DNA of 64,000 nt, from the NCBI GenBank assembly GCA_902364975.1, contig CABJFQ010000002.1, forward strand, positions 129,041 through 193,040. The letters are read 5' to 3'. Under the pieces are notes generated by a model that had not been told where the DNA came from, did no database searches, and saw only the letters and a list, made by a program, of their open reading frames with translations. The stretch comes from Coriobacteriaceae bacterium. GTDB taxonomy: Bacteria; Actinomycetota; Coriobacteriia; Coriobacteriales; Coriobacteriaceae. Position 1 is the first letter of the stretch; the number at the start of each line of letters is the position of its first letter. Shown in pieces: positions 4,206 through 46,180 of this stretch. The translations under genes were made by a program, and so were the position numbers.

Positions 4206-4227
4206 CTGACTAATAAGGAGTCCTACC

Positions 4228-4653: not shown

Positions 4654-4690
4654 ATAGCTCGCCGCGGAATCGCTCGCATTCATGGCATGA

Positions 4691-4831: not shown

Positions 4832-4960
4832 GGTCATAGTTATTACGTGGCGGTCGAGGTCGACCGTATAGGCCGCGCCTTGTTTGGCTAAAGTACAATC
4901 ATCTGTGTTTAACTCGCCCGCAGCTGCACGGCGTGGGCGATGGCCAAAAAGGAAAACCAC

Positions 4961-7767
<2,807 letters not shown>

Positions 7768-25143: not shown

Positions 25144-25158
25144 CCGTCCTTCATAAGT

Positions 25159-25219
25159 TGCGGTGGAATACGGACTGGTTTGCCTGTTTGAGGGGCTATT
25201 CAGTCCCTATTTCACCGCA
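25159..25219. repeat. 19-bp imperfect palindrome after smpB
   Basis: TGCGGTGGAATACGGACTG (25159-25177) pairs with CAGTCCCTATTTCACCGCA (25201-25219), with one G-T pair and one mismatch. No T-run follows. The right-arm word CTATTTCACCGC recurs near 51000. Confidence 0.55.
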
Positions 25220-25264
25220 GCTGCGGGTGTCTCATCTTTCTTACTGTTCTGACACATATGTTTC

Positions 25265-25298
25265 AAAGGCGGCGTCCGTTATGGGTGCCGCCTTTTTG
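25265..25298 (+). terminator. smpB-region terminator
   Basis: AAAGGCGGC/GCCGCCTTT stem followed by TTTTTG. Confidence 0.85.
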
Positions 25299-25348
25299 TG
25301 GGTACATACATCCATGAGGTTCCAACCCGGGTTAGGGGAGTGATCGTT

Positions 25349-25852
25349 ATGGACAAAACAGCGTTCTTTACCATGCCGAGCGGTCTGTACGTGGTGAGCG
25401 CCGCGGCAGACGGGCTGCGCGCCGGCTGCGTCATCAACACTGCGGTGCAGGTGACGTCCATGCCGCCGCGCATTTCGGTTGCCGTGAACAAGGACAACGT
25501 CACCTCGGGCGTCATCGCTTCGGCCAAAGCGTTCGCGCTGACCGTGATCGATCAGACCGCCGATATGCTCTACATCGGTAACTTTGGGTTCCGCACCAGC
25601 AGCGATTATGACAAGTTTGCCAAATACGAGACCCGCGAGACGGCTCTGGGCATGCCCTATGTGCCCGAGCACGCGGCGGCCCTGTTTAGCTGCCATTTGA
25701 TCGACACTGTGGATGTTGGCACGCATCTACTGTTTATCGGCGAGGTCGAGGATGCCGAGCGCTTGAGTGACGAGACGCCGCTCACCTACGATTACTACCA
25801 TAAGGTCCTGAAGGGCAAGACGCCTCCGAAGGCGTCCTCGTATCAAGGCTAG
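25349..25852 (+). CDS. Flavin reductase-like FMN-binding protein
   Basis: 167-residue split-barrel flavoprotein of the flavin reductase domain family. Typical features are the N-terminal PSGLYVVSAAADG, the INTAVQVTSMPPRISVAVNKDN segment and HLIDTVDVGTHLLFIGEVEDAE. It is followed 89 bp later by rubredoxin. In acetogens and clostridia, high-molecular-weight rubredoxins join just these two domains in one chain and pass electrons from NAD(P)H to rubredoxin-dependent oxygen- or NO-reducing proteins. The adjacent genes here suggest a split form (inference). The ATG at 25349 has GGGGAG upstream. Confidence 0.88.
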   Translation: MDKTAFFTMPSGLYVVSAAADGLRAGCVINTAVQVTSMPPRISVAVNKDNVTSGVIASAKAFALTVIDQTADMLYIGNFGFRTSSDYDKFAKYETRETALGMPYVPEHAAALFSCHLIDTVDVGTHLLFIGEVEDAERLSDETPLTYDYYHKVLKGKTPPKASSYQG

Positions 25853-25869
25853 AAATGTTTTAAAAATAC

Positions 25870-25897
25870 TTGCATTATATTATTGAGAATCTATACT
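25870..25897 (+). promoter_or_regulatory. Rubredoxin promoter
   Basis: TTGCAT and TATACT with 16 bp between them in an AT-rich gap, about 45 bp before the rubredoxin start. Rubredoxin can therefore be expressed without the flavoprotein. Confidence 0.5.
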
Positions 25898-25941
25898 GAT
25901 AAATGAAGTACATCACCAGTCGCGTTTGAGAGGAGAACATC

Positions 25942-26085
25942 ATGGCTGAGGAGAAGAAGACGTATAAGTTCGTGTGCGTCGTTTGCGGTTACGAGGTTGA
26001 GGTCGATACGCCCGAGCTGCCCGAGGATTATGTGTGCCCGGTGTGCGGCGTCGGTCCCGATCAGTTTGAGCTCGTCGAGGAGTAG
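25942..26085 (+). CDS. Rubredoxin
   Basis: 47-residue iron protein, one Fe held by four cysteines in two pairs: [12 protein letters not shown] near the N-terminus and [14 protein letters not shown] near the C-terminus. It is a one-electron carrier in the cytoplasm. It is slightly shorter than common rubredoxins (52-54) and has Gly-Val-Gly after the second pair. AGAGGAG precedes the ATG and a terminator follows. Its neighbour upstream is a flavin reductase-like protein, a likely electron donor. Confidence 0.95.
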
Positions 26086-26125
26086 CTCGTCGGCACGCGG
26101 CTCACGGCAACACATAGCTCTGTCC

Positions 26126-26162
26126 AAGGGCCCCGGTCGAATTCTCGGCCGGGGCCCTTTTC
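26126..26162 (+). terminator. Rubredoxin terminator
   Basis: GGGCCCCGG...CCGGGGCCC stem followed by TTTTCC. Confidence 0.9.
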
Positions 26163-26229
26163 CTCCGCCCCTAAGGGATCACGGTTGCTGTTGGCCGATC
26201 CTGTCTGTTGTGAGTCCGGCCGACCTTTT

Positions 26230-26366
26230 GTCTTAATCTGTAACGTCTAACGGTGGAAATTGGGCCCACTTGTTACATATCGAGACAAACCAAAACCGTC
26301 CGGCAGAAGATCTCAATCTGTAACATCTAGACATCGAAAGCGGGTCTAGATGTTACAGATCGAGAC
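26230..26366. repeat. 137-bp palindrome doublet (57+23+57), copy 1
   Basis: Units 26230-26286 and 26310-26366 each have 15-bp arms of type GTCTCAATCTGTAAC/GTTACAGATCGAGAC and a 27-bp variable centre. A 23-bp spacer (AAACCAAAACCGTCCGGCAG...) joins them and is nearly identical to the spacer at 28695. Confidence 0.85.
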
Positions 26367-26393
26367 GTTTGCCTGAGTAGGTGCCCCGCCCCA

Positions 26394-27650
26394 TTACATC
26401 CCTGTCAACAACACGACATCGAGAATCGTCACGATGGCACCGATCCCTACGAGCAGCGCGTTGAGTGGACGCGAATTGGCGTATTTGCCCATGACGCGGG
26501 GTGAACTGGTGAGCCGTATGAGCACAAAGACCGTAATCGGTAGCTGAAGCGACAGCAGTGCCTGACTCCAGATGAGACCTTCAAAAGGATTTGGGACGAC
26601 CAGGCACGCCGTCACTGCGCCGACGAAACAGGCCGCCACCCCGATCGAGGAATGTCGGTCGTGGATATCGTATTCCTCGTCGAACATGCCCGCAGTGATG
26701 GTCCCCGCCGCCATGCCCGCTGTCACGCTGCTCGATAGTCCCGCGAACAGCAGCGCCACGGCAAAGATGGTCGAGCTCGCCGGGCCCAAGATGGGGGAGA
26801 GCGTGGCCGCTGCGACGGCGAGGTCGTCTACGACCATGCCGTGCGCAAAGAAGGTCGTTGCGGCCAGGATGACCATGGCCGAGTTGATTGCCCAGCCCAC
26901 GCCCATCGAAAAGAGCGTGTCGAAGAGCTCGTAGTGCAGACGTTCTTCGATAACTTGCTCGCCTTGGCCTTCGAAGTGCATGGATTGGATGACCTCGGAG
27001 TGCAGAAAAAGGTTGTGTGGCATAACGACCGCACCCAGGACACTCACGATAATCGCGGCAGAGCCAGTGGGCATACTAGGCGTGATCCAGCTTGCGGTTG
27101 CTTGCGGCCAGTCGACTTTGACCAGCGCGAGCTCTGCTAAAAACGAGAGTCCCACCACACCCACGAAGGCGATGATCCAGCGTTCGGCGCGCTTGTAGGA
27201 GCTCGTCATGAGCATCGCCATCGATACTGCCGCCACGATGACGCAGCCCGCGCGCACGGGCAGCCCAAAGAGCATTTGAAGGGCAATCGCGCCACCCAGG
27301 ACTTCGGCCATGGCGGTGACGACGGTCGCGAGATAGGCACTGGCGAGTACCGTGCGTCCAACGAAGCGGGGGAGGTAACGTGTCGTGGCCTCGGCAAGGC
27401 AGGCGCCCGTGGCGATACCCAGGTGCGCCGCGTTGTGCTGCAGCACAATGAGCATAATCGTGGACAGCGTGACGATCCACAGCAGCGCGTAGCCAAACTG
27501 CGAGCCCGCGGCCATATTGGAGGCCCAGTTGCCCGGGTCGATAAAGCCGACGGTCACGAGCAGCCCGGGGCCGATATGCCGCGCAATGTCTAGGCCTCCG
27601 TGACCGCCGGTGCGCCGGGAACCAAAGTGTTGTTTGAGATGGTTGAGCAT
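26394..27650 (-). CDS. Nramp-family divalent metal (Mn2+/Fe2+) transporter
   Basis: Proton-coupled metal importer of the MntH/Nramp family, 418 residues, about 11 membrane helices. The metal-site motif of helix 1 is intact (GFIDPGNWASNMAAG, the DPGN signature), as is the helix 6 motif (VMPHNLFLHSEVIQS, with MPHN). The start at 27650 (ATGCTCAACC) is chosen because CAGGAG lies 9 nt upstream; a longer frame begins at 27686. It lies 75 bp after gpmA on the same strand, so co-transcription is possible. Which metal is carried cannot be told from sequence. Confidence 0.92.
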   Translation of the reverse strand: MLNHLKQHFGSRRTGGHGGLDIARHIGPGLLVTVGFIDPGNWASNMAAGSQFGYALLWIVTLSTIMLIVLQHNAAHLGIATGACLAEATTRYLPRFVGRTVLASAYLATVVTAMAEVLGGAIALQMLFGLPVRAGCVIVAAVSMAMLMTSSYKRAERWIIAFVGVVGLSFLAELALVKVDWPQATASWITPSMPTGSAAIIVSVLGAVVMPHNLFLHSEVIQSMHFEGQGEQVIEERLHYELFDTLFSMGVGWAINSAMVILAATTFFAHGMVVDDLAVAAATLSPILGPASSTIFAVALLFAGLSSSVTAGMAAGTITAGMFDEEYDIHDRHSSIGVAACFVGAVTACLVVPNPFEGLIWSQALLSLQLPITVFVLIRLTSSPRVMGKYANSRPLNALLVGIGAIVTILDVVLLTGM

Positions 27651-27725
27651 GGTGCGCTCCTGTGTATGGGCGGCGTGACGTCGCATCTGGGCCGTGCGGC
27701 GCCACGCGTCGGTTTTGGGTTGGGG

Positions 27726-28499
27726 CTACTTGTGTGCTTTGCCCTGATTGGCCACGGCGTCGATCTTGGCGGCGATGGTCGCCGGGTCGCCGATGTAGCG
27801 CTTGTCGAGGACGTTGAAATCGGTGTCGAAGGTGTAGACGAGCGGCACGCCGGTGGGGATGTTGACCTTGAGGATCTCCTCGGGCATGAGGTGCTCGAGC
27901 TTCATGACGAGTGAGCGCAGGGAGTTGCCGTGCGCGGCGATGAGTACGCGCTTGCCGGCGAGCATCTGGGGGCGAATCTCGTCTTCGAAATAGGGCCAGG
28001 CGCGGGCGATCGTGTCCTTGAGGCACTCGGTATAGGGTAGCTGATCGGGCGCGATGTCGCGGTATTGCTCCTGGGTGTGGGGGTCGCGCGCGTCGTCCGG
28101 CTCGAGTGCCGGCGGGCAGATATCGAAGGAGCGGCGCCAGATGAGCACCTGTTCGTCGCCGTGCTCCGCGGCGGCATCGGCCTTGTTGAGACCCTGCAAC
28201 GCACCGTAGTGGCGCTCGTTGAGCTTCCAGGATTTGATGACGGGCAGCCACTCGCGATCCATTTGGCCGAGCACGATATCGAGGGTGTGAATTGCGCGCT
28301 TGAGACGCGAGGTGTAGCAGACGTCAAAGTCGAAACCGGCTTCTTTGAGGGCGCGACCGCCTGCTGCGGCTTCTTCGCGGCCCGTGTCGGTGAGCTCGAC
28401 ATCGGTCCAGCCGGTGAACAGGTTGAGTTTGTTCCACTCGGATTCTCCGTGACGGATAAGGACAAGTTGCATTGTCTGTCGGTCTGCTCGGTGCGCCAT
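27726..28499 (-). CDS. gpmA: 2,3-bisphosphoglycerate-dependent phosphoglycerate mutase
   Basis: Glycolytic enzyme that interconverts 3- and 2-phosphoglycerate. It has the phosphohistidine motif VLIRHGESEWN, GWTDVELTDTGREEA, SRLKRAIHT, WKLNERHYGALQGLNK and the second histidine in AAHGNSLRSLV. At 257 residues it fits the dPGM family. The ATG at 28499 has AAGGAGG upstream; an internal ATG at 28472 (MQLVLIRHG) is the usual family start and is an alternative. It is followed by the Nramp transporter gene. Confidence 0.95.
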   Translation of the reverse strand: MAHRADRQTMQLVLIRHGESEWNKLNLFTGWTDVELTDTGREEAAAGGRALKEAGFDFDVCYTSRLKRAIHTLDIVLGQMDREWLPVIKSWKLNERHYGALQGLNKADAAAEHGDEQVLIWRRSFDICPPALEPDDARDPHTQEQYRDIAPDQLPYTECLKDTIARAWPYFEDEIRPQMLAGKRVLIAAHGNSLRSLVMKLEHLMPEEILKVNIPTGVPLVYTFDTDFNVLDKRYIGDPATIAAKIDAVANQGKAHK

Positions 28500-28637
28500 A
28501 GGGGCCTCCTTGATCTGGCACGGTGTGCGTGCCGTTTGCTTGACGCCGCAAAGGATACCCGTTTTAAGCTTAAAAGTTAACCAAGCCTAACAAAATTGTT
28601 CTATTTGAATGGGATGGTGAAGGGGGGCTGCCGAAAT

Positions 28638-28774
28638 GTCTCGATCTGTAACAGCTGGCCGCCAAAACCGGCCCTTCGTGTTACAGATCGAGACAAACCA
28701 AAACCGCTCCGCAGAAAATCTCAATCTGTAACATCTAGGCGCCAAAATCCGCTCTTCCTGTTACAGATTGAGAT
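28638..28774. repeat. 137-bp palindrome doublet (57+23+57), copy 2
   Basis: Units 28638-28694 and 28718-28774 with a 23-bp spacer, between the divergent gpmA and gltB genes. Same arms as copy 1, different 27-bp centres. Confidence 0.85.
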
Positions 28775-28931
28775 GTTTGAAGCGGTGAGCTTACAGGCCG
28801 AACTTGGGCGTCTTGTTGCCGCCCTTGAGGCCTGCTGTGTCGAGCCCCATCATGCAAAAGTCCGCATGGCCCTTGTTTCCAGAATGATTCAAAGGGGCCA
28901 GATGCATATGTGCCGGCTGTCCCTGCACTAA

Positions 28932-28994
28932 AACGTGTACGTCAGCCTCCAAAGATGTCAAATTTCGACATGTTTGGGGGCTGACGTACATGTT
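28932..28994. repeat. 63-bp hairpin in the gpmA-gltB divergent region
   Basis: Two 28-bp arms (28932-28959 and 28967-28994; core GTACGTCAGCC/GGCTGACGTAC) pair at 25 standard positions plus two G-T, around a 7-base loop AAATTTC. It lies 130 bp before gltB. The rest of 28500-29124 has no convincing gene. Confidence 0.65.
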
Positions 28995-29124
28995 TGATAG
29001 CAAGACGTTGATGGTCGGTGTGCGTTACGCGATTGTTTCGAAACGGGCGGGAAACACAGCGGGCCGGCGATGCTCCTAGTATGCCTAGTCAACTGACTGT
29101 CTAAATATCTAGGGGAGGATCGCG

Positions 29125-32100
29125 ATGCAGGCAGATTCCGCTCAGCAGCAGGGCCTTTATCGCCCCGAATTCGACCATGATGCATGTGGCATCGGCGCGC
29201 TTGCCGATATCAACGGTGAGCGCCATCACCAGATTCTGGACGACGCACTGTCCATTCTGGTCAACTTGGAGCACCGCGGCGGCACGGGACTCGAAAAGAA
29301 CACCGGCGACGGCGCCGGCATCCTGTTCCAGGTTCCGCATCACTTTTTCCGTAAAGAGGCTCAAAAGTGCGGCCAGATTCTGCCGGCAGAGGGCGACTAT
29401 GGCGTGGCCATGCTGTTCTTCCCGCAGGACGACAAAGGCGTAGAGGATGCCCGCCGCGTGTTTGAGGAGGGCTGCGCCGAGGCCGGCGTGCCGCTGCTCT
29501 TTTGGCGCGAGGTGCCGGTTGACCCGCACGACTTGGGCGAGACGGCGCGTGCCTGCATGCCCACCATCCTGCAGGCCTTCCTGGGCCGCCCCGACGACAC
29601 GCCCGCCGGCGATGCCTTCGAGCGTCGCCTGTACGTGTGCCGCCGCACCATCGAAAAGAAGGCCGACGCCGAGTTTGCCCTGCGCGACAAGATCTTCTAT
29701 GTGTGCTCCATGAGCTCGCGCACCATCGTGTACAAGGGCATGCTGGTCGCCACACAGATGCGCCGCTTCTTCATCGACCTCAACGACGCCGCCGTCAAGA
29801 CGGCGGTGGCGCTCGTCCACTCGCGCTACTCCACCAACACCACGCCCAGCTGGGAGCGCGCGCATCCCAACCGCTTTATCATCCACAACGGCGAGATCAA
29901 CACCCTTAAGGGCAACGTCAACTGGATTCGCGCCCGCGAACCCAACCTGTACAGCCCCGTGTTACAGCACGATCTTGAGCGCGTGATGCCCATCATCAAC
30001 CGCGAGGGTTCCGACTCGGCGATTTTGGACAACGTGCTTGAGTTTTTGGTCATGAACGGTCGCCCGCTCACGCGTGCCGCGTCCATGTTGCTGCCCGAGC
30101 CGTGGGACCACAACGACAGCCTGAGTGAGGAGCGCCGCGCCTACGACGCCTACCAGTCCATGCTCATGGAGCCGTGGGACGGCCCGGCGGCCATCGCCTT
30201 TACCGACGGTCGCACGCTGGGCGCCGCCCTCGATCGCAACGGCCTGCGCCCCGCTCGTTACTACGTGACGCGCGACGGTCGCTTTATGCTGGCAAGCGAG
30301 GTGGGCACCATCGAGGTGAGCCCCGAGAACATCCTGACGAGCGGCTGTCTGGGGCCGGGCCAGATGCTCGAGGTCGACTTTGCCCGCGGGCGCGTCATCT
30401 ACAATGACGAGCTGCGCGCCCGTTACGCCAAGGAAAAGCCCTACCGTGATTGGATTGCCGAGGAGACGCTGACCGTCGACGCGCTCGATGAGCCCGCCGC
30501 GCCCGCGTCCGCCGAGGACGCCGAGGTGCCCGCCGCCGTGCGTATGGCCAAGCTCGGCTACCACTGGGATGACGTCGACGAGGTCGTGCGTCCCATGGCC
30601 CAGCAGGGCAAGGCCCCGCTCGCCTCGATGGGCATCGACGCACCGCTGGCCTGCCTGTCCAAGAAGACGCGTTCGTTCTTTGACTACTTCTATCAGCTGT
30701 TCGCTCAGGTCACGAACCCGCCCATCGACGCCCTTCGCGAGCATATGGTCACTTCGACCACGCTCTACCTGGGCAACCACGGCAACCTGCTCGAGGACTC
30801 CCGTACGGCCTGCCAGCTGGTGCGCCTGGAGCGTCCGCTGCTCAACGAGGAGGAGTTCGACCGCATTTGCGCCATCGACCGCGTGGGCTTTAAGACCCGC
30901 CGCTTCCGTGCCGTGTACCGCCGCGATGCCGGCGAGGGCGCGCTGCAGGCTGCGCTCAAGCAGCTTGCAGAGGACGTTGAGGCTGCGGTCCGCGATGGCG
31001 TGAACATCGTGGTGTTGAGCGATCGTGCCGCTGCGGGCGAGGTGCCCGTGCCGTCGCTGCTCGCTGTGGGCTGCGTGCATAACCACCTGATCCGCGCCGG
31101 CGTGCGTACCTTTGCCGACATCGTGGTGGAGAGCGGCGACGCCGTGTCTCCGCACGACTTTGCGGCACTGGTGGGCTACTCCGCGAGCGGCATCTATCCG
31201 TACAACGCACATGCGTGCATCCGCGATCTGGCGGCACACGGCGACCTGGACGTGACGGCCGAGCAGGGCATCGCCAACTACAACAAGGCCGCGACGGCGG
31301 GCATCGTCTCCATCATGTCCAAGATGGGCATCTCCACGGTGCAGAGCTACCATTCGGCGCAGATCTTCGAAGCCGTGGGCTTTACGCCGGAGTTCGTCAA
31401 CGCGTACTTTGCCGGCACGGTGAGCCGTGTGGGCGGTATGGGTGTCGAGGACGTTGAGCGCGAGCAAAACGAGCGCTACGACGCCGCGCTCGCCATCCTT
31501 AAGAGCCCGGCTCCCGATCAGCTGCCCACGCTGGGCCTGACCAAGTGGCGCCCGATCGGCGGCGAGGATCACCTGATCGACCCTCAGACTGTCTACTTGC
31601 TGCAGACCGCCTGCCGTGAGGACAGCTTCGACACCTTTAAGGAGTACAGCGCCCGTCTGCACCGTACCGGCCGTGCCGTGCGCCTGCGCGACTTGCTCGA
31701 CTTTGATGCCAGCGGCCGCACGCCGGTTTCGCTCGACGAGGTCGAGCCCGCGCTCAACATCGTCCGCCGCTTTAACACCGGCGCCATGTCGTACGGCTCT
31801 ATCAGCAAGGAAGCACACGAGTGCATGGCCATCGCCATGAACCGCCTGCACGGCCGTTCCAACTCCGGCGAGGGCGGTGAGGATCCGCGTCGCGAGACCC
31901 CGCTGGCTAACGGTGATTCCAAGAACTCCGCGATCAAGCAGGTGGCAAGTGCGCGCTTTGGCGTGACGAGCCGCTACCTGTGCAGCGCCTTCGAGATTCA
32001 GATCAAGATGGCCCAGGGCGCCAAGCCCGGCGAGGGTGGCCACCTGCCCGGCAAGAAGGTCTACCCCTGGATTGCCGAGGTCCGTCAGTCCACGCCCGGC

Positions 32101-33834
32101 ATCGGCCTGATCTCGCCTCCGCCGCATCACGACATCTACTCCATCGAAGACCTGGCCGAGCTCATCTTTGACCTTAAGAACGCCAACCCTGGCGCACGCG
32201 TGTCGGTCAAGCTGGTCAGCGAGGCCGGCGTCGGCACCATCGCCACCGGTGTGGCCAAGGGCGCTGCCGACAAGATCTTGATCAGCGGCCACAATGGCGG
32301 CTCGGGTGCCGCTGCTCGCGATTCGATCTGGCACGCCGGTCTGCCGCTGGAGCTTGGCCTTGCCGAGGCCCAGCAGACGCTGCTGCAAAACGGCCTGCGC
32401 TCGCGCGTGGTGCTCGAGGCCGACGGCAAGCTCATGGACGGCACCGATGTTGCCGTCGCCTGCCTGCTGGGCGCCGAGGAGTTTGGCTTTGCGACCATGC
32501 CGCTCATCTCGATGGGCTGCCTCATGCAGCGCGACTGCCAGCAGGATACCTGCCCCGCCGGCATCGCCACGCAAAACTGCCGCCTGCGTCGCGGCTTCCG
32601 CGGCAAGCCCGAGCACGTCGAGCACTTTATGCTCTTTGTTGCCGGGCAACTGCGCGAGGTCATGGCGAGCCTGGGCTTCCGCACCGTCGACGAGATGGTC
32701 GGCCATCCCGAGTGCTTGCGCCAGATTGAGGTCCCGGGCAACCGTAAGGCCAACCTGCTCGATCTGTCGCCCGTGCTGGCGAGCGCGACCTGCGAGTTCG
32801 GTGCCCATATCCCGGGTGCCGACGGTCGTCACTTCCTGCCGCAGATGGCCGCGGACAGCGAGCTCGACAAGACGCTCGACTCCACGCTGTTCGTGCCCTA
32901 TACGGCCGATGCCCGTGCCCACTTGCGCCCGATTCGCTTCCGCGCCGATATCGCCAACGTCAACCGTTGCGTGGGCACCATCCTGGGTAACGCGGTGACC
33001 AAGGCACATCCCGAGGGCCTGCCCGCCGGCTCCATCACCATCGATTGCGATGGATCGGCCGGTCAGAGCTTTGGCGCCTTCCTGCCGCGCGGCATTACGC
33101 TCAACGTGTGCGGCGACGCCAACGACTACTTTGGCAAAGGCCTTTCGGGCGGCGAGGTGTCGGTGCGCCCCAACCCGCATGCGACCTATAAGTTCGACGA
33201 AAACATCATCGTGGGCAACGTTGCGTTCTTTGGCGCCACGAGCGGCCGTGGCTTCATCAACGGCCTGGCCGGCCAGCGCTTTGGCGTACGCAACTCCGGT
33301 GCCACCGTGGTGGTCGAGGGCTGCGGCAACCATGGCTGCGAGTACATGACGGGCGGTCTGGCGCTTATCCTGGGTGAGGTCGGGCAGAACTTCGCCGCCG
33401 GTATGACGGGCGGCGTGGCCTATGTCTTTGACCAGTACGGCACGCTCGATGCCCGCGTGAACCACGAGAGCGTTGAGCTTAAGGCCTCGACGGCCGGCGA
33501 GCTGGCACAGATTCGCGAGCTCATCCAAGAGCACGTGGACGCGACGCAGAGCCCGCGCGGCATCAAGCTGCTCTACAGCTTTGAGACGATGAGCAAGCAC
33601 TTCGTGAAGGTCATTCCGACCGAGTACGAGCGTGTGCTGGCGATTGTCGCCGCCGCCGAGGCCGTCGGCAAGACGTATGCGCAGGCAGAGGAGCTGGCGT
33701 TTGACATCGTGACCGGTCGCGCGAGCGCTGCGGATGTCGCTCGCTTCGATACTGCGGGCGGTGCTGCGGGCGGTGCTGCGGGCGCTGCGTCCGTGGCTGC
33801 CAGCCCTGTTGCTTCGACCAAGAAGGAGGCGTAA
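29125..33834 (+). CDS. gltB: Glutamate synthase large subunit
   Basis: Large (alpha) subunit of NADPH-type glutamate synthase, which makes two glutamates from glutamine and 2-oxoglutarate. The N-terminal amidotransferase begins near DACGIGALADI, with the nucleophilic Cys exposed after processing of a 21-residue leader. It then has the central domain, the FMN-binding synthase domain (GAMSYGSISKEAHE, KPGEGGHLPG, SGHNGGSGAA) and a 3Fe-4S cysteine set (CLMQRDCQQDTCPAG), then the C-terminal GXGXG beta-helix (SAGQSFGAFLP, VVEGCGNHGCEYMTGG). The 1569-residue length is standard. The C-terminal tail carries a short Gly-Ala repeat. gltD follows after 5 bp. Confidence 0.97.
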   Translation: MQADSAQQQGLYRPEFDHDACGIGALADINGERHHQILDDALSILVNLEHRGGTGLEKNTGDGAGILFQVPHHFFRKEAQKCGQILPAEGDYGVAMLFFPQDDKGVEDARRVFEEGCAEAGVPLLFWREVPVDPHDLGETARACMPTILQAFLGRPDDTPAGDAFERRLYVCRRTIEKKADAEFALRDKIFYVCSMSSRTIVYKGMLVATQMRRFFIDLNDAAVKTAVALVHSRYSTNTTPSWERAHPNRFIIHNGEINTLKGNVNWIRAREPNLYSPVLQHDLERVMPIINREGSDSAILDNVLEFLVMNGRPLTRAASMLLPEPWDHNDSLSEERRAYDAYQSMLMEPWDGPAAIAFTDGRTLGAALDRNGLRPARYYVTRDGRFMLASEVGTIEVSPENILTSGCLGPGQMLEVDFARGRVIYNDELRARYAKEKPYRDWIAEETLTVDALDEPAAPASAEDAEVPAAVRMAKLGYHWDDVDEVVRPMAQQGKAPLASMGIDAPLACLSKKTRSFFDYFYQLFAQVTNPPIDALREHMVTSTTLYLGNHGNLLEDSRTACQLVRLERPLLNEEEFDRICAIDRVGFKTRRFRAVYRRDAGEGALQAALKQLAEDVEAAVRDGVNIVVLSDRAAAGEVPVPSLLAVGCVHNHLIRAGVRTFADIVVESGDAVSPHDFAALVGYSASGIYPYNAHACIRDLAAHGDLDVTAEQGIANYNKAATAGIVSIMSKMGISTVQSYHSAQIFEAVGFTPEFVNAYFAGTVSRVGGMGVEDVEREQNERYDAALAILKSPAPDQLPTLGLTKWRPIGGEDHLIDPQTVYLLQTACREDSFDTFKEYSARLHRTGRAVRLRDLLDFDASGRTPVSLDEVEPALNIVRRFNTGAMSYGSISKEAHECMAIAMNRLHGRSNSGEGGEDPRRETPLANGDSKNSAIKQVASARFGVTSRYLCSAFEIQIKMAQGAKPGEGGHLPGKKVYPWIAEVRQSTPGIGLISPPPHHDIYSIEDLAELIFDLKNANPGARVSVKLVSEAGVGTIATGVAKGAADKILISGHNGGSGAAARDSIWHAGLPLELGLAEAQQTLLQNGLRSRVVLEADGKLMDGTDVAVACLLGAEEFGFATMPLISMGCLMQRDCQQDTCPAGIATQNCRLRRGFRGKPEHVEHFMLFVAGQLREVMASLGFRTVDEMVGHPECLRQIEVPGNRKANLLDLSPVLASATCEFGAHIPGADGRHFLPQMAADSELDKTLDSTLFVPYTADARAHLRPIRFRADIANVNRCVGTILGNAVTKAHPEGLPAGSITIDCDGSAGQSFGAFLPRGITLNVCGDANDYFGKGLSGGEVSVRPNPHATYKFDENIIVGNVAFFGATSGRGFINGLAGQRFGVRNSGATVVVEGCGNHGCEYMTGGLALILGEVGQNFAAGMTGGVAYVFDQYGTLDARVNHESVELKASTAGELAQIRELIQEHVDATQSPRGIKLLYSFETMSKHFVKVIPTEYERVLAIVAAAEAVGKTYAQAEELAFDIVTGRASAADVARFDTAGGAAGGAAGAASVAASPVASTKKEA

Positions 33835-33839
33835 GTGCC

Positions 33840-35321
<1,482 letters not shown>

Positions 35322-35364
35322 AGTAGTCACGGAGATACTCAACAATCGAATCGGAAAGGGCTGT

Positions 35365-35424
35365 CCCTAACTGCCGGCACAAAAGGAACGTCCCTAAGTG
35401 CCGGCAGTTAGGGACGTTCCTTTT
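35365..35424. repeat. Overlapping alternative hairpins after gltD
   Basis: Two perfect inverted repeats share bases and cannot form together. CCCTAACTGCCGGCAC (35365-35380) pairs with 35398-35413; AAAAGGAACGTCCCTAA (35381-35397) pairs with 35408-35424. The words GGAACGTCCC and AGTGCCGGC recur near 46150 and 57630. The rest of 35425-35745 shows overlapping short frames but no convincing gene. Confidence 0.65.
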
Positions 35425-35745
35425 CTGTCGGCACTCGGGGACACTCCTTGCGGATTTGCGAGCAGTTTGCTCGTTTGTCGACGTACGGATGTTCATTTGT
35501 CGACTTCTCGGGCTGTGGTCACCTGTTGTTTCTGTGGTGGCTGCGGGCATCTGGCTCAAAAGGGCGGGTTGGCCGTCTATGTCTACCTGCGGTTTTATTG
35601 CGGTGCGCATTTTCGATCAAGCTTTTCGTCAAGTGTTTGGTCAGTATCTGGTTTGCAGTCGGAGGCCTATTTTGCCCGCGCTGGTCGTGGCTGCCCACCT
35701 TCCTCGTAAGCTCAAATTGAGGTCCATCAGTTTGAGGAGGATGCC

Positions 35746-36453
35746 ATGACTGACCACGCTTTTGACCGAGCAGAGCTAGCCGAAGCCGTCGGCAACGATA
35801 TTGCCGACATGGCTCACTTTTGGATGCTGCGGAAGTTTCAATTCCTGGAGCCGGCGCGCGAACAGTTCGAGATCATTGTCGACCCGTGGCTCAGCTATTG
35901 CACTGAGCCTTCGCAAAACGAAATCATGGCCTACAACATGGCGTTTACCGATTGGCTGCTGTTTGAGCGCCCCTATCGCCATGGCAAAACGCTGCTCGAG
36001 CTGTATGTTGACGAGCCGCCGGCATCGCTTTCGCCTGCCTCGCTCAAGCGGCTCGAGCAGGTACGCGACACGCAGTATTTCTCGCGCTTTGGCATTTTGG
36101 ACAAGAATCCTGCGTCCGGCATGGTCGTGCTGAAGGACACGCGCACCGATCATCGCTTTGATGTCTACGATCCGCATATCGTGCAGAAGGAGCACTGGAG
36201 TGACGGCGCGATTGCGGTGCGCCTCGCCTGCGTCGACGATGTCTGGCTTACGGCGGGACAGCTCTACCTGTATGACATCGCGCGGCTGAGCGATACGGCG
36301 GTCGATGGGCCGGGTGCGGTGCATCCGGAGGACCTGCAGGACGGCTTTGACACCTCGTGCATCAGCTTCTTCTTGCGTCTGGTCCGCGACATCATGGGCG
36401 CCCAGGGGCGGTACGTAAAGTCGCTCAACATCTACGAGCAGGAGTGGGGGTAG
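35746..36453 (+). CDS. Conserved-looking hypothetical protein, 235 aa
   Basis: Soluble protein of unknown function. It starts MTDHAFDRAELAEAVGNDIADMAHFW with a GAGGAGG site well spaced before the ATG, and codon use fits its neighbours, so it is a real gene. It is rich in aromatic and acidic residues, has no signal peptide or membrane helix, and contains the tracts QVRDTQYFSRFGILD and MVVLKDTRTDHRFDVYD, which read as beta strands. I recognise no domain. It has no operon partner: gltD lies 425 bp upstream and a palindrome unit 41 bp downstream. Confidence 0.75.
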   Translation: MTDHAFDRAELAEAVGNDIADMAHFWMLRKFQFLEPAREQFEIIVDPWLSYCTEPSQNEIMAYNMAFTDWLLFERPYRHGKTLLELYVDEPPASLSPASLKRLEQVRDTQYFSRFGILDKNPASGMVVLKDTRTDHRFDVYDPHIVQKEHWSDGAIAVRLACVDDVWLTAGQLYLYDIARLSDTAVDGPGAVHPEDLQDGFDTSCISFFLRLVRDIMGAQGRYVKSLNIYEQEWG

Positions 36454-36493
36454 AGGATGGGCGGTTGTCGCCTGCCTTGCCTTCTGCCCTTTT

Positions 36494-36550
36494 GTCTCGA
36501 TGTGTAACGTTTAACGGCCTGGGGGCGGCCTAACTGTTACAGATTGAGAT
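36494..36550. repeat. Single 57-bp palindrome unit
   Basis: GTCTCGATGTGTAAC and GTTACAGATTGAGAT arms around a 27-bp centre. This is the only single unit of the family in the window. Confidence 0.8.
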
Positions 36551-36702
36551 GTTTCGTCAGCACGGCCGAAGTATCGCCACGCTGTCTCCGTTTGCCCTCA
36601 CATCTCTCTCGTCCCTCCGTTAACCGATATGCTCGACTTTAGGTCGCTGCATTGGGTGATAATGGACAAATGTTCAAGTTAATCGTGAGGGAGGAGCTCG
36701 AT

Positions 36703-38073
36703 ATGGCGACTGCCGATCGTTCCACGTTGTTTATCAATGCGACCATTCTGGATGGTTCGGAGCATATGGAGCCGCAACCCGATATGGCCGTGACTGTTGA
36801 GCGCGGCGTCATCACCTGGATGGGGCCGAGTGCTGTGGCGCAGGCGCCCGCGGGTGCCGAGGTTATCGACCTGGGCGGTGCGTATCTCATGCCCGGTCTC
36901 ATCAATATGCACGCGCACCTGTGCGGCTCGGGCAAGCCTGTCTCGGCCGGCGATGCGGGAGCGCTGATGAAGAAGCTCGATAATCCCGTGGGGCGTGCCA
37001 TCGTCCGCCGCATCCTCAAGGGCAGTGCCCAGCAGCAGCTGGCAAGCGGCGTGACCACGGTGCGCGGCGCGGGCGACCCGCTGTTTGCCGACATTGCCGT
37101 GCGCGACGCTATCGACGCCGGTAAGTATCAGGGTCCGCGTCTGGTAGCGCCGGGAACGGGCGTCACGGTGCCGGGCGGCCATGGTGCGGGCTTGTTCGCC
37201 CAGGTCGCCAATACGCCCGACGAGGCGGCCGAACAGGTGCGCGACTTGTACGCTCGTGGTGCCGACGTCATCAAGTTGTTCGTGACGGGTGGCGTGTTCG
37301 ACGCGACCGAAGTTGGCGAGCCGGGCGTGCTGCGCATGCCGATCGATGTTGCCGCGGCGGCGTGCAAGGCGGCGCACGAGGTGGGCCTGCCGGTTATGGC
37401 TCATGTCGAGAGCACCGAGGGCGTGAAGGCCGCGCTTGAGGCCGGGGTCGACACGATCGAGCACGGTGCCCCGATGACGCCCGAGATCCTGGAGCTGTAT
37501 CGCGGCGCCGCGGGCACACAGCTCGAGGGACGCGCGCCGAGCGTGACCTGCACGATCAGCCCGGCGCTGCCGTTTGTATTGCTCGACCCGGAAAAGACCC
37601 ATTCGACCGATACACAAAAGAAGAACGGCGACATCGTGTGCTCGGGCATCATCGAGAGCGCCCGTGCCGCGCTGGAAGCTGGCATTAAGGTGGGCCTGGG
37701 CACGGACTCAAGCTGCCCGTTCGTGACGCAGTACGACATGTGGCGTGAGGCGGCCTATTTTGCCAAGTATGTCGGTGTGAGCAACGCCTTCGCGCTGCAT
37801 ACGGCTACGCAAGTCAACGCCGAGCTGCTGGGGCTGGGCGGCGAGACCGGTACGATCGAGTGCGGCAAGGCCGCCGATATCCTGGTGACGCGCAAGAATC
37901 CGCTCGATGACCTGTGCGCTCTGCGTGAGCCGACGCATGTGATGTGTCGCGGTGATTTGGTACGCAAGCTCAAGGTGAAGCGTATTCCCGAGGTGGACGC
38001 CGAGCTCGACGCGATTATGGCCATGCCTGCCGAAGCGCTGGCTGAGGAGCTGGCCCGCGACGGTGTGGCGTAG
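36703..38073 (+). CDS. Metal-dependent amidohydrolase
   Basis: 456-residue amidohydrolase-superfamily enzyme. It has an N-terminal beta sandwich, the HxH metal motif INMHAHLCG, the segment ADVIKLFVTGG carrying the bridging Lys, HVES and DTIEHG histidines, and the catalytic Asp in LGTDSSCP. The C-terminal strand AADILVTRKNPLDDL is typical. It resembles the Xaa-Pro dipeptidase/imidazolonepropionase-like branch; the substrate cannot be assigned. The ATG at 36703 is chosen because GGGAGGAG is 8 nt upstream; an in-frame GTG at 36652 lacks this. The gene is monocistronic with its own terminator. Confidence 0.9.
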   Translation: MATADRSTLFINATILDGSEHMEPQPDMAVTVERGVITWMGPSAVAQAPAGAEVIDLGGAYLMPGLINMHAHLCGSGKPVSAGDAGALMKKLDNPVGRAIVRRILKGSAQQQLASGVTTVRGAGDPLFADIAVRDAIDAGKYQGPRLVAPGTGVTVPGGHGAGLFAQVANTPDEAAEQVRDLYARGADVIKLFVTGGVFDATEVGEPGVLRMPIDVAAAACKAAHEVGLPVMAHVESTEGVKAALEAGVDTIEHGAPMTPEILELYRGAAGTQLEGRAPSVTCTISPALPFVLLDPEKTHSTDTQKKNGDIVCSGIIESARAALEAGIKVGLGTDSSCPFVTQYDMWREAAYFAKYVGVSNAFALHTATQVNAELLGLGGETGTIECGKAADILVTRKNPLDDLCALREPTHVMCRGDLVRKLKVKRIPEVDAELDAIMAMPAEALAEELARDGVA

Positions 38074-38106
38074 ATGTGACAAAGGGGCAGCTCCGTTGCC
38101 GCATGC

Positions 38107-38147
38107 AAAAAGCTGAGGTCTCAACACGAGGCCTCGGCTTTTTTATC
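38107..38147 (+). terminator. Amidohydrolase terminator
   Basis: AAAAGCTGAGGTCTC...GAGGCCTCGGCTTTTTT, a 12-bp stem with two G-T pairs and a T-run. The A-rich left flank could let it also serve the convergent minus-strand gene. Confidence 0.9.
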
Positions 38148-38166
38148 GAACAAATACTTAAGATTT

Positions 38167-38195
38167 GGGACAAACAAACCTGATTAATTTGTCCC
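38167..38195. repeat. Short REP-like hairpin
   Basis: GGGACAAA/TTTGTCCC arms around CAAACCTGATTAA, in the gap between convergent genes. Confidence 0.5.
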
Positions 38196-38206
38196 GCGTG
38201 CGGGCG

Positions 38207-38680
38207 TTAGGAGCGGGTTTCCATCTTGGCGTGGCACTTGGGGCAGGTGACGCGGATCTTGCCTTTGCCCTTGGGGACGGAGAGCATCTGGCCGCAGTTG
38301 GGGCACTTGAGGTATGCTGTGGTCTTGCGACCCTTCCACATCTTCTTGGCCGTGCGCTTGGCACGCTCAAAGTCTTCCTTGCTGGTACCGGCCGTGCGCG
38401 AGGCGTTGGCAGCCGCGGCGCCGCTACCCAAGCTCGCGACGAACTTGCCCAGGCCGGGGACGTTAGCGGTCGCGGCGACAAAGGCCGCGTTTTCCTTGCG
38501 ACGTGCGTCGATGTTTTTGGACAGGCCGCGCAGCACGCCAATCACGATTACGGCGATGGCAATCCAGCTGAGCCACTGGATATGGGCTATCGATCCGATC
38601 ATCGCGATGACGATGCCGACAAAGCCCATAACGATGGTGAGCTCATCGGCGCCATTGCGGCCCTTCATAAAGTCATTCAT
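38207..38680 (-). CDS. Membrane protein with C-terminal zinc ribbon
   Basis: 157-residue protein with two adjacent membrane helices (about residues 14-48: TIVMGFVGIVIAMIG, then LSWIAIAVIVIGVL) and a cytoplasmic, Lys-rich linker. It ends in a zinc ribbon with two CxxC pairs: YLKCPNCGQML and VTCPKCHAKME. No enzyme motif is present. It lies downstream of csoR on the same strand, separated by a REP-like repeat, so it may or may not share the copper transcript. Function unknown; nucleic-acid or protein binding by the ribbon is a guess. Confidence 0.85.
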   Translation of the reverse strand: MNDFMKGRNGADELTIVMGFVGIVIAMIGSIAHIQWLSWIAIAVIVIGVLRGLSKNIDARRKENAAFVAATANVPGLGKFVASLGSGAAAANASRTAGTSKEDFERAKRTAKKMWKGRKTTAYLKCPNCGQMLSVPKGKGKIRVTCPKCHAKMETRS

Positions 38681-38738
38681 GCAAATTGCCTTTCATTCGA
38701 TATGCCGCACGCCTTTATACCCGATTTAGAGCAAGGGG

Positions 38739-38818
38739 GACAGGTTATTCTGCACCAATGTGGTGTAAACGTGCCTGTCCCCGATACACCAAGATGGTGC
38801 AAAGCAGTCCGTCCCCAA
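38739..38818. repeat. REP-like element, compound
   Basis: GGGGACAGG...CCTGTCCCC arms enclose a smaller TGCACCA/TGGTGTA pair, and a second CACCA...TGGTG pair with GTCCCC follows. This is the same word set as at 4731-4766 and 46060-46120. Confidence 0.55.
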
Positions 38819-38826
38819 TGCCCCAA

Positions 38827-39099
38827 TCACTTGGAGAGCTTGTCGACGACGCGTTCGATCTCGGCGAGCTTGGCGGCCTTGAGGTCTTCGTCGCCCGATT
38901 CGATTGCCGAGGTCACGCAACCCTCGATATGCGCCTTGAGCACGTCGGCGTTGATGCGCGCAATGAGCGCCTGCGTTGCCATGAGCTGCGTGGAAATATC
39001 GACGCAGTAGCGGTCCTCCTCGACCATCCGCAGGATGCCGTCGATCTGACCGCGTGCCGTCTTGAGCATGCGGGTCACCGATTTATGGTCTGCCATCAT
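38827..39099 (-). CDS. csoR: CsoR-family copper-sensing repressor
   Basis: 90-residue all-helical regulator of the CsoR/RcnR family (DUF156). The Cu(I) ligand set Cys-His-Cys is present: Cys32 (EEDRYCVDI), His57 and Cys61 (KAHIEGCV). When Cu(I) binds, such proteins leave the operator and allow expression of copper export genes. It lies at the 3' end of copA-copZ-csoR on the minus strand, 38 bp after copZ, giving negative feedback. A GAGGAC-type site precedes the ATG at 39099; the second ATG at 39096 is equally possible. A matching operator lies in the copA promoter. Confidence 0.95.
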   Translation of the reverse strand: MMADHKSVTRMLKTARGQIDGILRMVEEDRYCVDISTQLMATQALIARINADVLKAHIEGCVTSAIESGDEDLKAAKLAEIERVVDKLSK

Positions 39100-39137
39100 G
39101 GCGGGTCCTCGTTTCTGGTCGGGGTGCGCGTGGGTCG

Positions 39138-39359
39138 TTACGCGGCGGTTACGGACAGGGCGTGGAACTTCTCGCCGGCGCCCTCGACGGCGGCGGCGAG
39201 CTGCTCGGCGGTCACGGTGTCGGCGCACTCCACCTGGACGGTCTGGGTTTCGTGATCGGCGTCGGCGTCGGTCACGCCGGCCACGTTGAGCAACGCCGTC
39301 TCGACGGTGGCGTCGCAGTGGCCGCACATAAGGCCGGAAGTCTTAATTGTGAAACGCAT
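39138..39359 (-). CDS. copZ: CopZ-like copper chaperone
   Basis: 73-residue heavy-metal-associated domain. The Cu(I)-binding loop reads SGLMCGHCDATVE, with Cys12 and Cys15 and the unusual LMCGHC in place of GMTCxxC. The beta-alpha-beta-beta-alpha-beta pattern is complete (TDADADHETQTVQVE). It would carry Cu(I) in the cytoplasm to CopA or to CsoR. The start at 39359 has GAGGAA upstream; a longer in-frame extension to 39470 runs through a hairpin and is not used. It lies between copA and csoR. Confidence 0.93.
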   Translation of the reverse strand: MRFTIKTSGLMCGHCDATVETALLNVAGVTDADADHETQTVQVECADTVTAEQLAAAVEGAGEKFHALSVTAA

Positions 39360-39395
39360 GGATATTCCTCTCTGTTGTGTCGGCTTTCCTAGGCA

Positions 39396-39467
39396 CCCGA
39401 CCTTGACCTTCAAACCGTCGCTCGCGTACCAAAGTACGCGTCGCTCCTCTTTCAGGTCAATCTCGGG
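39396..39467. promoter_or_regulatory. Long hairpin between copA and copZ
   Basis: The outer stem CCCGA..TTGACCT pairs with AGGTCAA..TCGGG and the inner stem CGCGTAC with GTACGCG (loop CAAA). No T-run follows on the minus strand, so it may be a processing or stability element within the copper mRNA instead of a terminator. Confidence 0.5.
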
Positions 39468-39506
39468 CACCTGGAAAACCCGTTCTAAATGGACTTAATG
39501 GTGAGC

Positions 39507-41846
39507 CTATTTTGCCACTTTGGATCTAAAAGTTCGCAGGCGCAGGGCATTGCTTACGACGCACACGCTCGACAGGCTCATGGCCGCGGCGCCAAACATC
39601 GGCGAGAGCTGCCATCCGGTGAGCGGGAAGAACACGCCCGCCGCCAGCGGAATGCCGATGCCGTTGTAGAACAGTGCCCAGAACAGGTCCTGCTTGATGT
39701 TGCGAATCGTGGCGCGCGAAAGCTCGATGGCGCGGGCGACGTCCATGAGGTCGCTGCGCATGAGCACCACATCTGCCCCCTCCTTGGCGATGTCGGCGCC
39801 GGCTCCGATCGCAAGGCCCACGTCGGCGCGCGCTAGGGCGGGGGAGTCGTTGATGCCGTCGCCCACCATGGCGACCTTGCCGCCCGCATCCTGCAGTTCG
39901 CGCACGTGGCGCTCCTTGTCGGCGGGGAGGACGTCGGCGATAACCTGTTCGCTGGTGAGTCCCACGCGGCGGGCGATGGCCTCGGCCGTCACGCGGTTGT
40001 CGCCGGTGAGCATGCGCACGTCGACGCCGAGTGAGCGCAGCGCGGAAATGGCTGCGGCGCTCGTCTCCTTGACCTCGTCGGCCACGGCAATGGTGCCGAC
40101 AAGCTCGCCGTTCTTGGCAAAGAACAGCGGCGTCTTGCCTTCGGCGGCAAATTGCTCGGCAAGACCCGCGGGCACGGTAACGCCCAACTCGTTCATCAGG
40201 CGCACGTTACCAGCGGCAATGGCGTTTTGCCCTTCGCGCGCCGTAACGCCACGACCGGGCACGGCAGCAAAGTCCTCGACCATGCGCGCGACGATTCCGC
40301 GTGTCTCGCACTCGGCCATAATCGCCTCGGCCAGCGGGTGCTCGCTTGAGCGCTCCAGCGCGGCGGCCAGCTTGAGCAGCGCCTTTTCGCTCATGGCGGA
40401 CGAGCCGTCAGCGCGCGTGGCTACCACGATATCGGTCACGGCAGGCTTGCCGCGGGTGACCGTGCCCGTCTTATCGAGCACCACGGTGCCCACGCTGCGC
40501 AGGTTCTCCAGCGCCTCGGCGCTCTTGAACAGAATGCCCATTTCGGCGCCCTTGCCGGTGCCCACCATAATGGCGACGGGCGTGGCCAGGCCCAGTGCAC
40601 ACGGACAGCTGATCACCAGCACGGCCACGGCGGAGGTGAGCGCTTCGTTCACGCTGCCAGTCAGTGCCATCCACACCGCAAAGGTCACGGCCGAGATCAC
40701 AAACACCACGGGCACAAATACGCCAGCGACCTTATCGGCCATGCGGGCGATGGGCGCCTTGGTGGCGTTGGCGTCCTCGACGAGCTTGATGATTTTGGCG
40801 AGCGACGTGTCGGCGCCCACACGCGTGGCGCGGAAGGTAAACGAGCCCGTGCGGTTGACCGTGGCCGCGTTGACAGTGTCGCCGGCGGTCTTCTCCACGG
40901 GGATGGACTCGCCGGTGAGCGCGCTCTCGTCCACGGCCGAGCTGCCCTCGAGCACCACGCCGTCGACGGGGATGGACTCGCCGGGGCGCACACGCAGCAC
41001 CTGGCCGGGCAGAATGGCATCGACGTCGACGGTGGCCTCGGTACCGTCCTCGGCCACGACGATCGCGGTCTTGGGCGCCAGGTCAATGAGCGCCTCGATG
41101 GCGCCGCCGGTTTTGGATTTGCTGCGTGTCTCGAGGTATTTGCCCACGGTGACGAGCGACAGGATCGTGCCCGCACTCTCAAAATACAGGTTGTCCATGC
41201 CCGTCATCATGGCCTCGCGGACCTGTCCTGCGGCTAGTTGGTCGGCCATGATAAACATGGCGTAGAGCGACCAGGCGATGGATGCGGTGGCGCCAACGGC
41301 GATAAGGGCGTCCATGGTGGGCGCGCCGTGTGCGAGCGATTTAAACCCGTTGATAAAGTACGCGTCGTTGACGTAGACGATAGGGATGAGCAGGACGAGC
41401 TCGGTGAGGGCGAGCGTCATGCTGTGGGTATGATCGGTGAAGACGCCAGGCAGCGGCCAGCCGAGCATGTGCCCCATGCCTATATAGAACAACGGGACAA
41501 GAAAGACGATTGAGACGATGAGTCGTGTGCGCATGGCGGAAGCGGCGGCCTCCAACTTTTTGGAGGGCGACTCCATATGGGCGGCGCCGGTCCTGGCTTG
41601 TGCGCTGCCGCTTGGGCCGGCGTCGGTGCCCGTGCTGACGGGCGAGGCCGAGTAGCCAGCGCGATCGACAGCGGTGCAGATGTCGTCGGGGGTGACCTGC
41701 GCGGGGTCATAGTCCACCAGCATGGAGCCGGCGAGCAGATTGACCGCGACGCTCTCGACGCCGTCGAGTTTGCTTACGGCGCGGTCCACGTGCGCCTGAC
41801 AGGCGGCGCATGTCATACCACCCACATCGAATTTATCTTGAGCCAT
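39507..41846 (-). CDS. copA: Copper-exporting P1B-type ATPase CopA
   Basis: 779-residue membrane pump that expels Cu(I). It has one N-terminal metal-binding domain ([13 protein letters not shown]), a Gly/Ser/Ala-rich linker, eight predicted helices, and the P1B signature CPC ([15 protein letters not shown]). Its phosphorylation motif is DKTGTVTRG, the nucleotide site SEHPLAEAI and the hinge [18 protein letters not shown]. The ATG at 41846 has GGAGAAG upstream. It is the first gene of a copA-copZ-csoR operon, and a G-tract palindrome typical of CsoR operators sits in the promoter. Confidence 0.96.
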
Positions 41847-41893
41847 GGCTTCTCCTTTCTGTGGCTCGGTATTGGAATTGTTAACCTGCCGAT

Positions 41894-41924
41894 ACTATAC
41901 ACCCATACCCCCTGGGGGTGTCCA
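41894..41924 (-). promoter_or_regulatory. copA promoter with CsoR-type operator
   Basis: On the minus strand TGGACA and TATAGT are 19 bp apart. The spacer holds the C/G-tract palindrome ACACCCCCAGGGGGTAT (41905-41921), the known shape of CsoR operators. Confidence 0.75.
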
Positions 41925-41997
41925 GTGGGGATGAAAATGTATGACATTTCGCTACAGATGCGGGTGGCTGCTCAATCGTTGGCAGCTCATGTCAAAC

Positions 41998-42134
41998 ATC
42001 TCGATCTGTAACATCTAGCGGGGAAAATGACCTCTAACTGTTACAGATTGAGATTTTGTTTTGCGAGGTTTGAGTTTGTCTCAATCTGTAACAGTTAGAC
42101 CGGTTTTTGGGTTCTAGATGTTACAGATCGAGAC
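41998..42134. repeat. 137-bp palindrome doublet (57+23+57), copy 3
   Basis: Units 41998-42054 and 42078-42134 have the standard arms; the spacer is again 23 bp but of different sequence. It lies between divergent copA and the DEAD-box gene. Confidence 0.85.
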
Positions 42135-42406
42135 AATCGGCCCAGGCCCGCCTCGTCCGCTCCGTCATCTGTGGTTTACGTGGGGGCATGCGAAGCACGG
42201 GTATACTAACCCGCGGCGAATCTGCTCCATCGCTTAGGGCCGCTGCGTCTGGACGGCGCGTGATAGGGCTGCCAAAGCGATCGCCAGCGTGCTGAGCAAC
42301 GTCCTCTCTGTGCGCACCCGTTTTTGTATGTATTAGCGCACTACCAAGCACGCCCGCGCGGCCGCATGCCGTGCCCATTGCGCGTGCAGATAAGGAACAA
42401 CAACAT

Positions 42407-44665
<2,259 letters not shown>

Positions 44666-46059: not shown

Positions 46060-46180
46060 TGGTGCAATGGGGCCAGGTTAATCTGCACCAACCTGGTGCA
46101 AACAAACCTGTCCCCAATGCATCAGAGTGAGGAGTGCCCCTGGGTGCCGGCAGAAAAGGAACGTCCCCAAGTGCTGCCTA
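46060..46180. repeat. Cluster of REP-like words
   Basis: 46060-46120 contains TTGGTGC, CTGCACCA, TGGTGCA and CCTGTCCCC. 46147-46178 contains GTGCCGGCAG, AAAAGGAACGTCCCC and AAGTGCTGCC, matching one half of the element at 35365-35424. Confidence 0.5.

Follow-up and report, generated by a model that had tools for sequence, protein, structure and literature searches.

Seven palindromes of identical length lie in a window of 64,000 nucleotides (the whole stretch of DNA that was analysed), each with two conserved arms around a centre that differs from copy to copy. They raise the question of what keeps the length of such a repeat so strictly while part of its sequence varies. An earlier note on this DNA had described seven 57-bp units at four loci, three of them doublets, and had suggested a protein-measured site, an RNA-measured site, or a REP doublet moved by a transposase. 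Its positions are exact: each of the seven units consists of 15+27+15 bp, and all three doublets in the window have 23-bp spacers. The window contains 14 matches to the arms, whereas 100 shuffles give 1.69 on average and never as many as 14. The units and spacers are the following:

26230..26286, no strand assigned: unit 1a, 57-bp dyad, first member of array 1
26287..26309, no strand assigned: spacer of array 1, 23 bp
26310..26366, no strand assigned: unit 1b, palindrome continued by its centre
28638..28694, no strand assigned: unit 2a, first member of array 2
28695..28717, no strand assigned: spacer of array 2, 23 bp
28718..28774, no strand assigned: unit 2b, second member of array 2
36494..36550, no strand assigned: unit 3, single unit
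41998..42054, no strand assigned: unit 4a, first member of array 4
42055..42077, no strand assigned: spacer of array 4, 23 bp
42078..42134, no strand assigned: unit 4b, second member of array 4

The spacers starting at 26287 and 28695 are nearly identical (19 of 23 positions agree), as had been noticed before, and the arrays at 26230 and 28638 as a whole are 77% alike over 143 nt. The claim that the palindrome continues into the centre at 26325 is borne out for unit 1b. According to gene calls from a simple caller made for this analysis, array 1 lies in the convergent gap between a rubredoxin-like gene and mntH, array 2 in the divergent gap between gpmA and a glutamate synthase gene, unit 3 in a tandem context, and array 4 in the divergent gap between genes for a copper P-type ATPase and a DEAD-box helicase. 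The earlier case against a plain terminator role stands, given these mixed gene contexts. The window also contains an inverted repeat at 12138-12270 with 33-nt arms that are 94% complementary and separated by 67 nt.

Geometry of the units and conservation of their length

The genome nearest to the window is G001, with which it has 42% of sampled 31-mers in common. In stretches around arrays, 56 units in 20 arrays were found in G001, 42 units in 17 arrays in G002, and 44 units in 18 arrays in G003. After two spurious arm pairings had been dropped, one of them judged by eye, the centre measures 27 bp in 140 of the 142 units, namely in 55 of 56 in G001 (one of 26 bp), in all 42 in G002, and in 43 of 44 in G003 (one of 28 bp). 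The 87 spacers of these genomes are similarly restricted, with 54 of 23 bp, 32 of 24 bp, and one of 22 bp. In a wider, redundant set in which centres of up to 59 bp were allowed, 337 of 343 centres measure 27 bp, and 212 of 214 spacers fall within 22-24 bp. The genome-wide search for scattered unit and spacer lengths, which had been proposed as a check, thus returned tight distributions; since both lengths are nearly constant across the genome, the fixed geometry is not due to chance. The doublets reported for the window are real, with one refinement: they are the two-unit case of arrays that comprise one to eight units with a period of 80/81 bp.

Length and sequence of the centre are conserved to different degrees. 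In 110 orthologous array pairs, some of them partly overlapping fetches of one genome, substitution rates are 0.027 for arms, 0.067 for centres, 0.073 for spacers, and 0.082 and 0.054 for the flanks, and in the same pairs the number of gaps per substitution is 0.006 for centres, 0.028 for spacers, and 0.110 and 0.064 for the flanks. The arms are thus constrained in sequence, a pattern that homogenisation among copies could imitate. In a test with 29 disjoint pairs from 18 loci, in which centres and flanks have equal substitution rates (0.079 and 0.078), indels were found in 2 of 76 centres compared to 20 of 116 flank windows, each 27 columns wide (p=0.002). The unit finder of these orthologue tests takes centres of 26-28 bp only; an open search for centres of up to 59 bp gave one other length only, at a non-Collinsella locus. 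The length of the centre is therefore kept while its sequence drifts at the rate of the flanks. Spacer length is kept more loosely than centre length, inside 22-24 bp, and is not clearly kept in the orthologue test, where 6 of 47 spacers of the disjoint pairs have indels.

Sequence pattern and the proposed reading as a measured DNA site

The full pattern of a unit extends over about 63 bp and reads WWY-RTCTCRATCTGTAACA-NN-YTRG, followed by 15 bp and the mirror image. When distinct centres are grouped into 44 clusters, variation in the arms is nearly restricted to positions 1, 5, and 6 and the positions that mirror them; A/T occupies -2 and 60 in the flanks, and TAG and CTA are recurrent in the centre. 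The symmetric ends (WWY-RTCTC) are found in these clusters as well as in the 88 units that were aligned. A/T makes up more than 90% at the dyad, where no base is fixed, G/C follows at about five bp on either side, and base composition along the unit has a broad spectral peak near 11 bp. This alternation of A/T and G/C suggests that the centre is bent and not read base by base. From centre to centre, the arms are separated by 42 bp, which corresponds to four turns of B-DNA and places both on one face of the helix. Among 796 half-sites of at least 12 bits in 1.10 Mb of loci, 789 lie inside units and 7 outside. Throughout G003, partial matches represent fragments of units; an insertion into one unit accounts for two of these, one for each half. 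As half-sites almost never stand outside units, the site seems to need both arms.

The two halves of a unit do not behave like the strands of a stem. In the 88 distinct units, with rows oriented according to how A-rich the centre is (a choice that reduces pairing near the dyad and leaves positions 17 and 41 unaffected), 77.0% of the cells pair, compared to a shuffle mean of 79.7%, and 500 of 500 shuffles equal or exceed the observed value. The covariation score also lies under that of every shuffle, and there is no compensatory change across the dyad. In a set of 68 less closely related units, there is a tendency to complementarity at the pair 6-52 (z=2.15) and an avoidance of it at the pair 17-41 (z=-3.13). 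In bacteria, long perfect palindromes lack stability, and this instability may be the cause of the avoided complementarity. With pairing below all 500 shuffles, the suggestion of an RNA-measured site is not supported, and an RNA hairpin or cruciform was set aside because pairing counts are below the shuffles and the halves do not covary. Integron attC sites, protelomerase sites, and an overlapping promoter (TGTAAC with CTA) were dropped as candidates on the basis of the pairing test only.

Of the suggestions of the earlier note, a protein-measured site is the one that gains support, as length is kept despite sequence drift, half-sites are rarely alone, and base composition is in helical phase. 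The favoured reading, to which a little better than an even chance is given, is that the units are double-stranded DNA dyads that a putative protein holds and bends, in cooperative arrays with a probably architectural or insulating function. A sequence-specific putative protein, probably a dimer or a dimer of dimers, would grip both arms together and would bend the 27-bp centre, with its A/T at the dyad and G/C beside it. The repeat of 80/81 bp would let neighbouring complexes touch and form cooperative blocks. Dispersed bacterial palindromes are usually taken for hairpins or transposon debris. In the present units, the constraint on length is separable from that on sequence and can be quantified for each copy, and a DNA-measuring protein is thereby suggested.

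Gene context, distribution, and turnover of the arrays

The 42 kinds of flanking-gene pair at array loci comprise 16 convergent, 9 divergent, and 17 tandem arrangements, compared to 15%, 18%, and 67%, respectively, among 364 array-free gaps. Convergent gaps are thus enriched for arrays (p=0.0002), and divergent gaps are not (p=0.55). Sites for promoter-bound regulators were rejected, because such sites would lie upstream of genes and 16 of 42 locus kinds are convergent, against 15% of gaps. The neighbouring genes are diverse and include regulators, one integrase, and transposase pieces. A search with 10 window proteins and 20 of 59 neighbour families, the remaining families being judged by eye from their letters, gave no recurrent DNA-binding neighbour gene and no binding protein.

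The arrays lie mainly at the borders of transcription units, and a local architectural or insulating role is the most likely one for them. A more far-reaching version of this reading, advanced tentatively and as distinctly the less probable one, is a clade-specific marking of the chromosome, in which a dedicated putative protein would wrap about 50 dyads in about 20 arrays and thereby insulate transcription units. In this tentative version, the protein would measure 27 bp within and 80/81 bp between units and build multi-unit nucleoprotein blocks. If true, such arrays would represent a bacterial counterpart of insulators in one branch of a genus. When array clusters of G003 are merged and partial units left out, two gaps of about 610-620 kb remain (p=0.017), one of which surrounds the point opposite dnaA. 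The array gaps of G002 resemble those of G003, but the two genomes are not independent, and the gaps give a hint only of origin or terminus marking.

The units occur chiefly in one clade, to which the arrays are restricted. A sequence-only search model of 63 positions, built on 88 units aligned gap-free, matches 25 of 41 Collinsella genomes, of which 21 are rich in arrays and 4 have traces, while 16 genomes have none. Array-rich genomes have from 78 to at least 130 matches each and trace genomes 2-4, with each unit counting on both strands. Across the class, under stricter filters by which weak matches are lost, 23 of 296 genomes and 1 of 125 genera (Collinsella only) were matched. In the 20 array-rich genomes with the prfC locus, the protein encoded there is 99-100% identical to the query, and the nearest genome without units has 92%; the array-rich group is therefore a tight clade. 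Named relatives with units, among the matches listed, are C. aerofaciens and Collinsella sp., and in a scan of public contigs, the matches listed for other organisms never have a 27-bp centre. Two genomes (G016 and G036) have one unit each before a clpB-like gene, so named from its letters, which also has an array in the array-rich clade. In another, otherwise unit-less genome (G035), a lone unit (L135, 1503-1559) lies near a tRNA-Met gene; a tRNA-Met gene also adjoins the insertion-split unit of locus L259 in G003. Phage records contain no matches to the unit. Plasmid carriage was rejected for the one match concerned, in a C. aerofaciens record of 899,693 bp that has the same length as a G007 contig and was taken as chromosomal. 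Viral contigs gave 17 matches, one of which has a 27-bp centre and is a piece of a Collinsella prophage. The other 16 (L203, L204, L206-L219) have centres of 25 (12) or 28 bp (4); none has 26, 27, or 29 bp, which is odd for chance.

Within the clade, individual arrays come and go. Of 21 array loci in G001-G003, 10 are occupied in all three genomes, 4 in two, and 7 in one. At prfC, the 20 clade genomes are divided into 10 with an array and 10 that are empty, and an individual array can therefore be dispensed with; the empty alleles closely resemble one another, and in them some flank on both sides is missing together with the array. At thiD, 11 of 21 genomes have an array, and the other ten sites, judged by eye, comprise six with a single terminator-like hairpin, three with different sequence, and one with an insertion.

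Such differences between close strains (prfC 10/20, thiD 11/21) would be expected of a MITE-like or REP-like family, in which the arms would serve as ends for a transposase, arrays would spread blockwise with lengths inherited from a founder, and some copies may later have been put to use. This explanation, the main rival of the favoured reading, is considered unlikely; in its favour are the inverted ends, the roughly 20 dispersed loci, the 77% likeness of arrays 1 and 2, and the occurrence of Y1_Tnp transposase genes. The latter, to which the transposase survey was confined, are present in 35 of 41 Collinsella genomes, including 21/21 array-rich, 4/4 trace, and 10/16 unit-less ones, and some link between arrays and Y1_Tnp may exist in view of the first and last of these numbers. 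However, none of the eight Y1_Tnp genes in G001-G003 lies beside a unit, as every copy is separated from the nearest unit by more than 100 kb or sits on a unit-free contig; in G007, one Y1_Tnp copy adjoins a half-unit remnant of array 1. As the units are also symmetric and longer than REPs, the transposase-moved REP doublet is not supported as first proposed, and a RAYT-moved REP is not supported by structure and by Y1_Tnp placement in three genomes. No clear target duplication was seen at prfC or thiD, the two loci at which empty sites were compared. No autonomous element with unit ends was found in the whole of G003, where extra matches are pieces of units, and a role as transposon ends was rejected because lone ends are remnants only (in G003 and as the 7 of 796 half-sites outside units). 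Centres have diverged among copies whereas their length and the arms have not, and even a mobile origin would leave the constraint on present copies in need of a cause. A second palindromic family with GTCCC and TGCCGGCA blocks, at 35349-35456 and 46130-46174 of the window, might be the REP of the Collinsella Y1_Tnp genes.

Less probable still is the explanation of the arrays as recombination sites or cassette borders, at which accessory segments are swapped or lost in an integron-like manner or by homologous exchange, and whose structure serves this exchange. The arrays at 26230 and 28638 have three units each in G001 and two in the window. At the locus of unit 3, G001 contains two arrays, of three and four units, separated by about 1.1 kb, and at the locus of array 4 its two arrays have four and two units and are separated by 3.4 kb, so that these two window arrays can be regarded as leftovers of paired arrays. 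About 27 kb between two arrays occupy the latter place in G003 (~1,050,950-1,078,000; L187-L189), and this segment encodes, as judged from the letters, a kinase-like protein, Hsp70-like proteins, and a P-loop protein. Array 1 is reduced to a half-unit remnant in G003 and G007, and gpmA, which lies between arrays 1 and 2, is absent from both. These contractions indicate unit-to-unit recombination of the arrays, by which intervening DNA can be lost. Ordinary homologous recombination between repeats yields the same products without a special enzyme, though, and several rearrangements of the same block lie away from arrays. An integrase-bearing element inside a unit arm, which would also fit recombination sites, was seen once, in G001: the element of about 4.3 kb (L270, ~2816-7211) encodes a phage-type tyrosine integrase and lies in the left arm, and its junctions have only CTG in common. 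A relative of this integrase is found in a prophage record (L205, 907-2289) that starts at the thiD-side array locus; it ends 118 bp from a two-unit array, and the junction is apparently the thiD end. A search for relatives gave only the same record and one unit-less fragment. In G003, an insertion of about 1.3 kb (L259, ~2655-4076) splits the centre of a unit and is flanked, as judged by eye, by the 8-bp direct repeat GCAGCTAG. The arrays mark sites of accessory-gene turnover and of one integrase-element entry in a common gut genus.

It is highly improbable that the units form RNA hairpins in untranslated regions with a function in transcript termination or in the protection of mRNA ends: the inverted arms of 15-16 bp, the enrichment in convergent gaps, and 20 of 49 array-facing gene ends without a prior terminator-like hairpin (13 of which leave at most 51 nt) would agree with such a role, but pairing is under all 500 shuffles without compensation, a terminator-like hairpin already precedes the array at 29 of the 49 gene ends (compared to 25 of 64 control ends), the thiD array lies, by eye, between two such hairpins, and the 14 weak Rfam matches at 24000-44000 of the window include none at gathering score.

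Comparison with known repeat systems

No published description of the Collinsella repeat was found in searches of the open-access literature, and excerpts of PMC3733652 and PMC12306157 do not mention Collinsella. In a broad sense, the units belong among interspersed palindromic repeats. Like REPs, BIMEs, and REPINs as portrayed in excerpts of PMC3733652, PMC2817692, and PMC3116915, they are short, dispersed, intergenic, species-specific palindromes that often occur in pairs or regular series; BIMEs are said in the same excerpts to bind proteins and have been proposed to serve chromosome organisation. REPs, however, measure 20-40 bp with a stem of 5-13 bp and a loop of 2-20 bp (excerpt of PMC3733652), whereas the Collinsella unit spans 57-63 bp, in which arms of 15 bp enclose a centre of 27 bp. 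Its ends are symmetric and lack a GTAG or CGTC tag, and its halves lack compensatory change, so that it fails the tests of a REP in length, tag, and compensation. The fixed 27-bp centre, the period of 80/81 bp, and the lack of an adjoining Y1_Tnp gene in three genomes are further differences.

MITEs have inverted ends and a short core, and occur at many loci with presence or absence at the strain level. The Collinsella units resemble them in their ends, number of loci, and strain-level variation, but the core differs among copies and yet keeps its length, and neither an autonomous partner in G003 nor a clear target duplication was found. In CRISPR arrays, conserved and variable blocks alternate, each of fixed length, and the same can be said of the present arrays. 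A CRISPR-like reading with a 53-bp repeat and a 27-bp spacer was nevertheless rejected, as the variable 27-mers have a common dyad pattern and are kept between orthologues, and the arrays are many and short.

Arrays of protein-binding dyads serve, for instance, as chromosome-organising or regulator sites. The Collinsella arrays have in common with them the dyad half-sites, the fixed spacing, and an A/T centre beside G/C as in bent operators. They differ from such arrays in that the site is unusually long, is repeated in tandem at 80/81 bp, and also occurs in convergent gaps.
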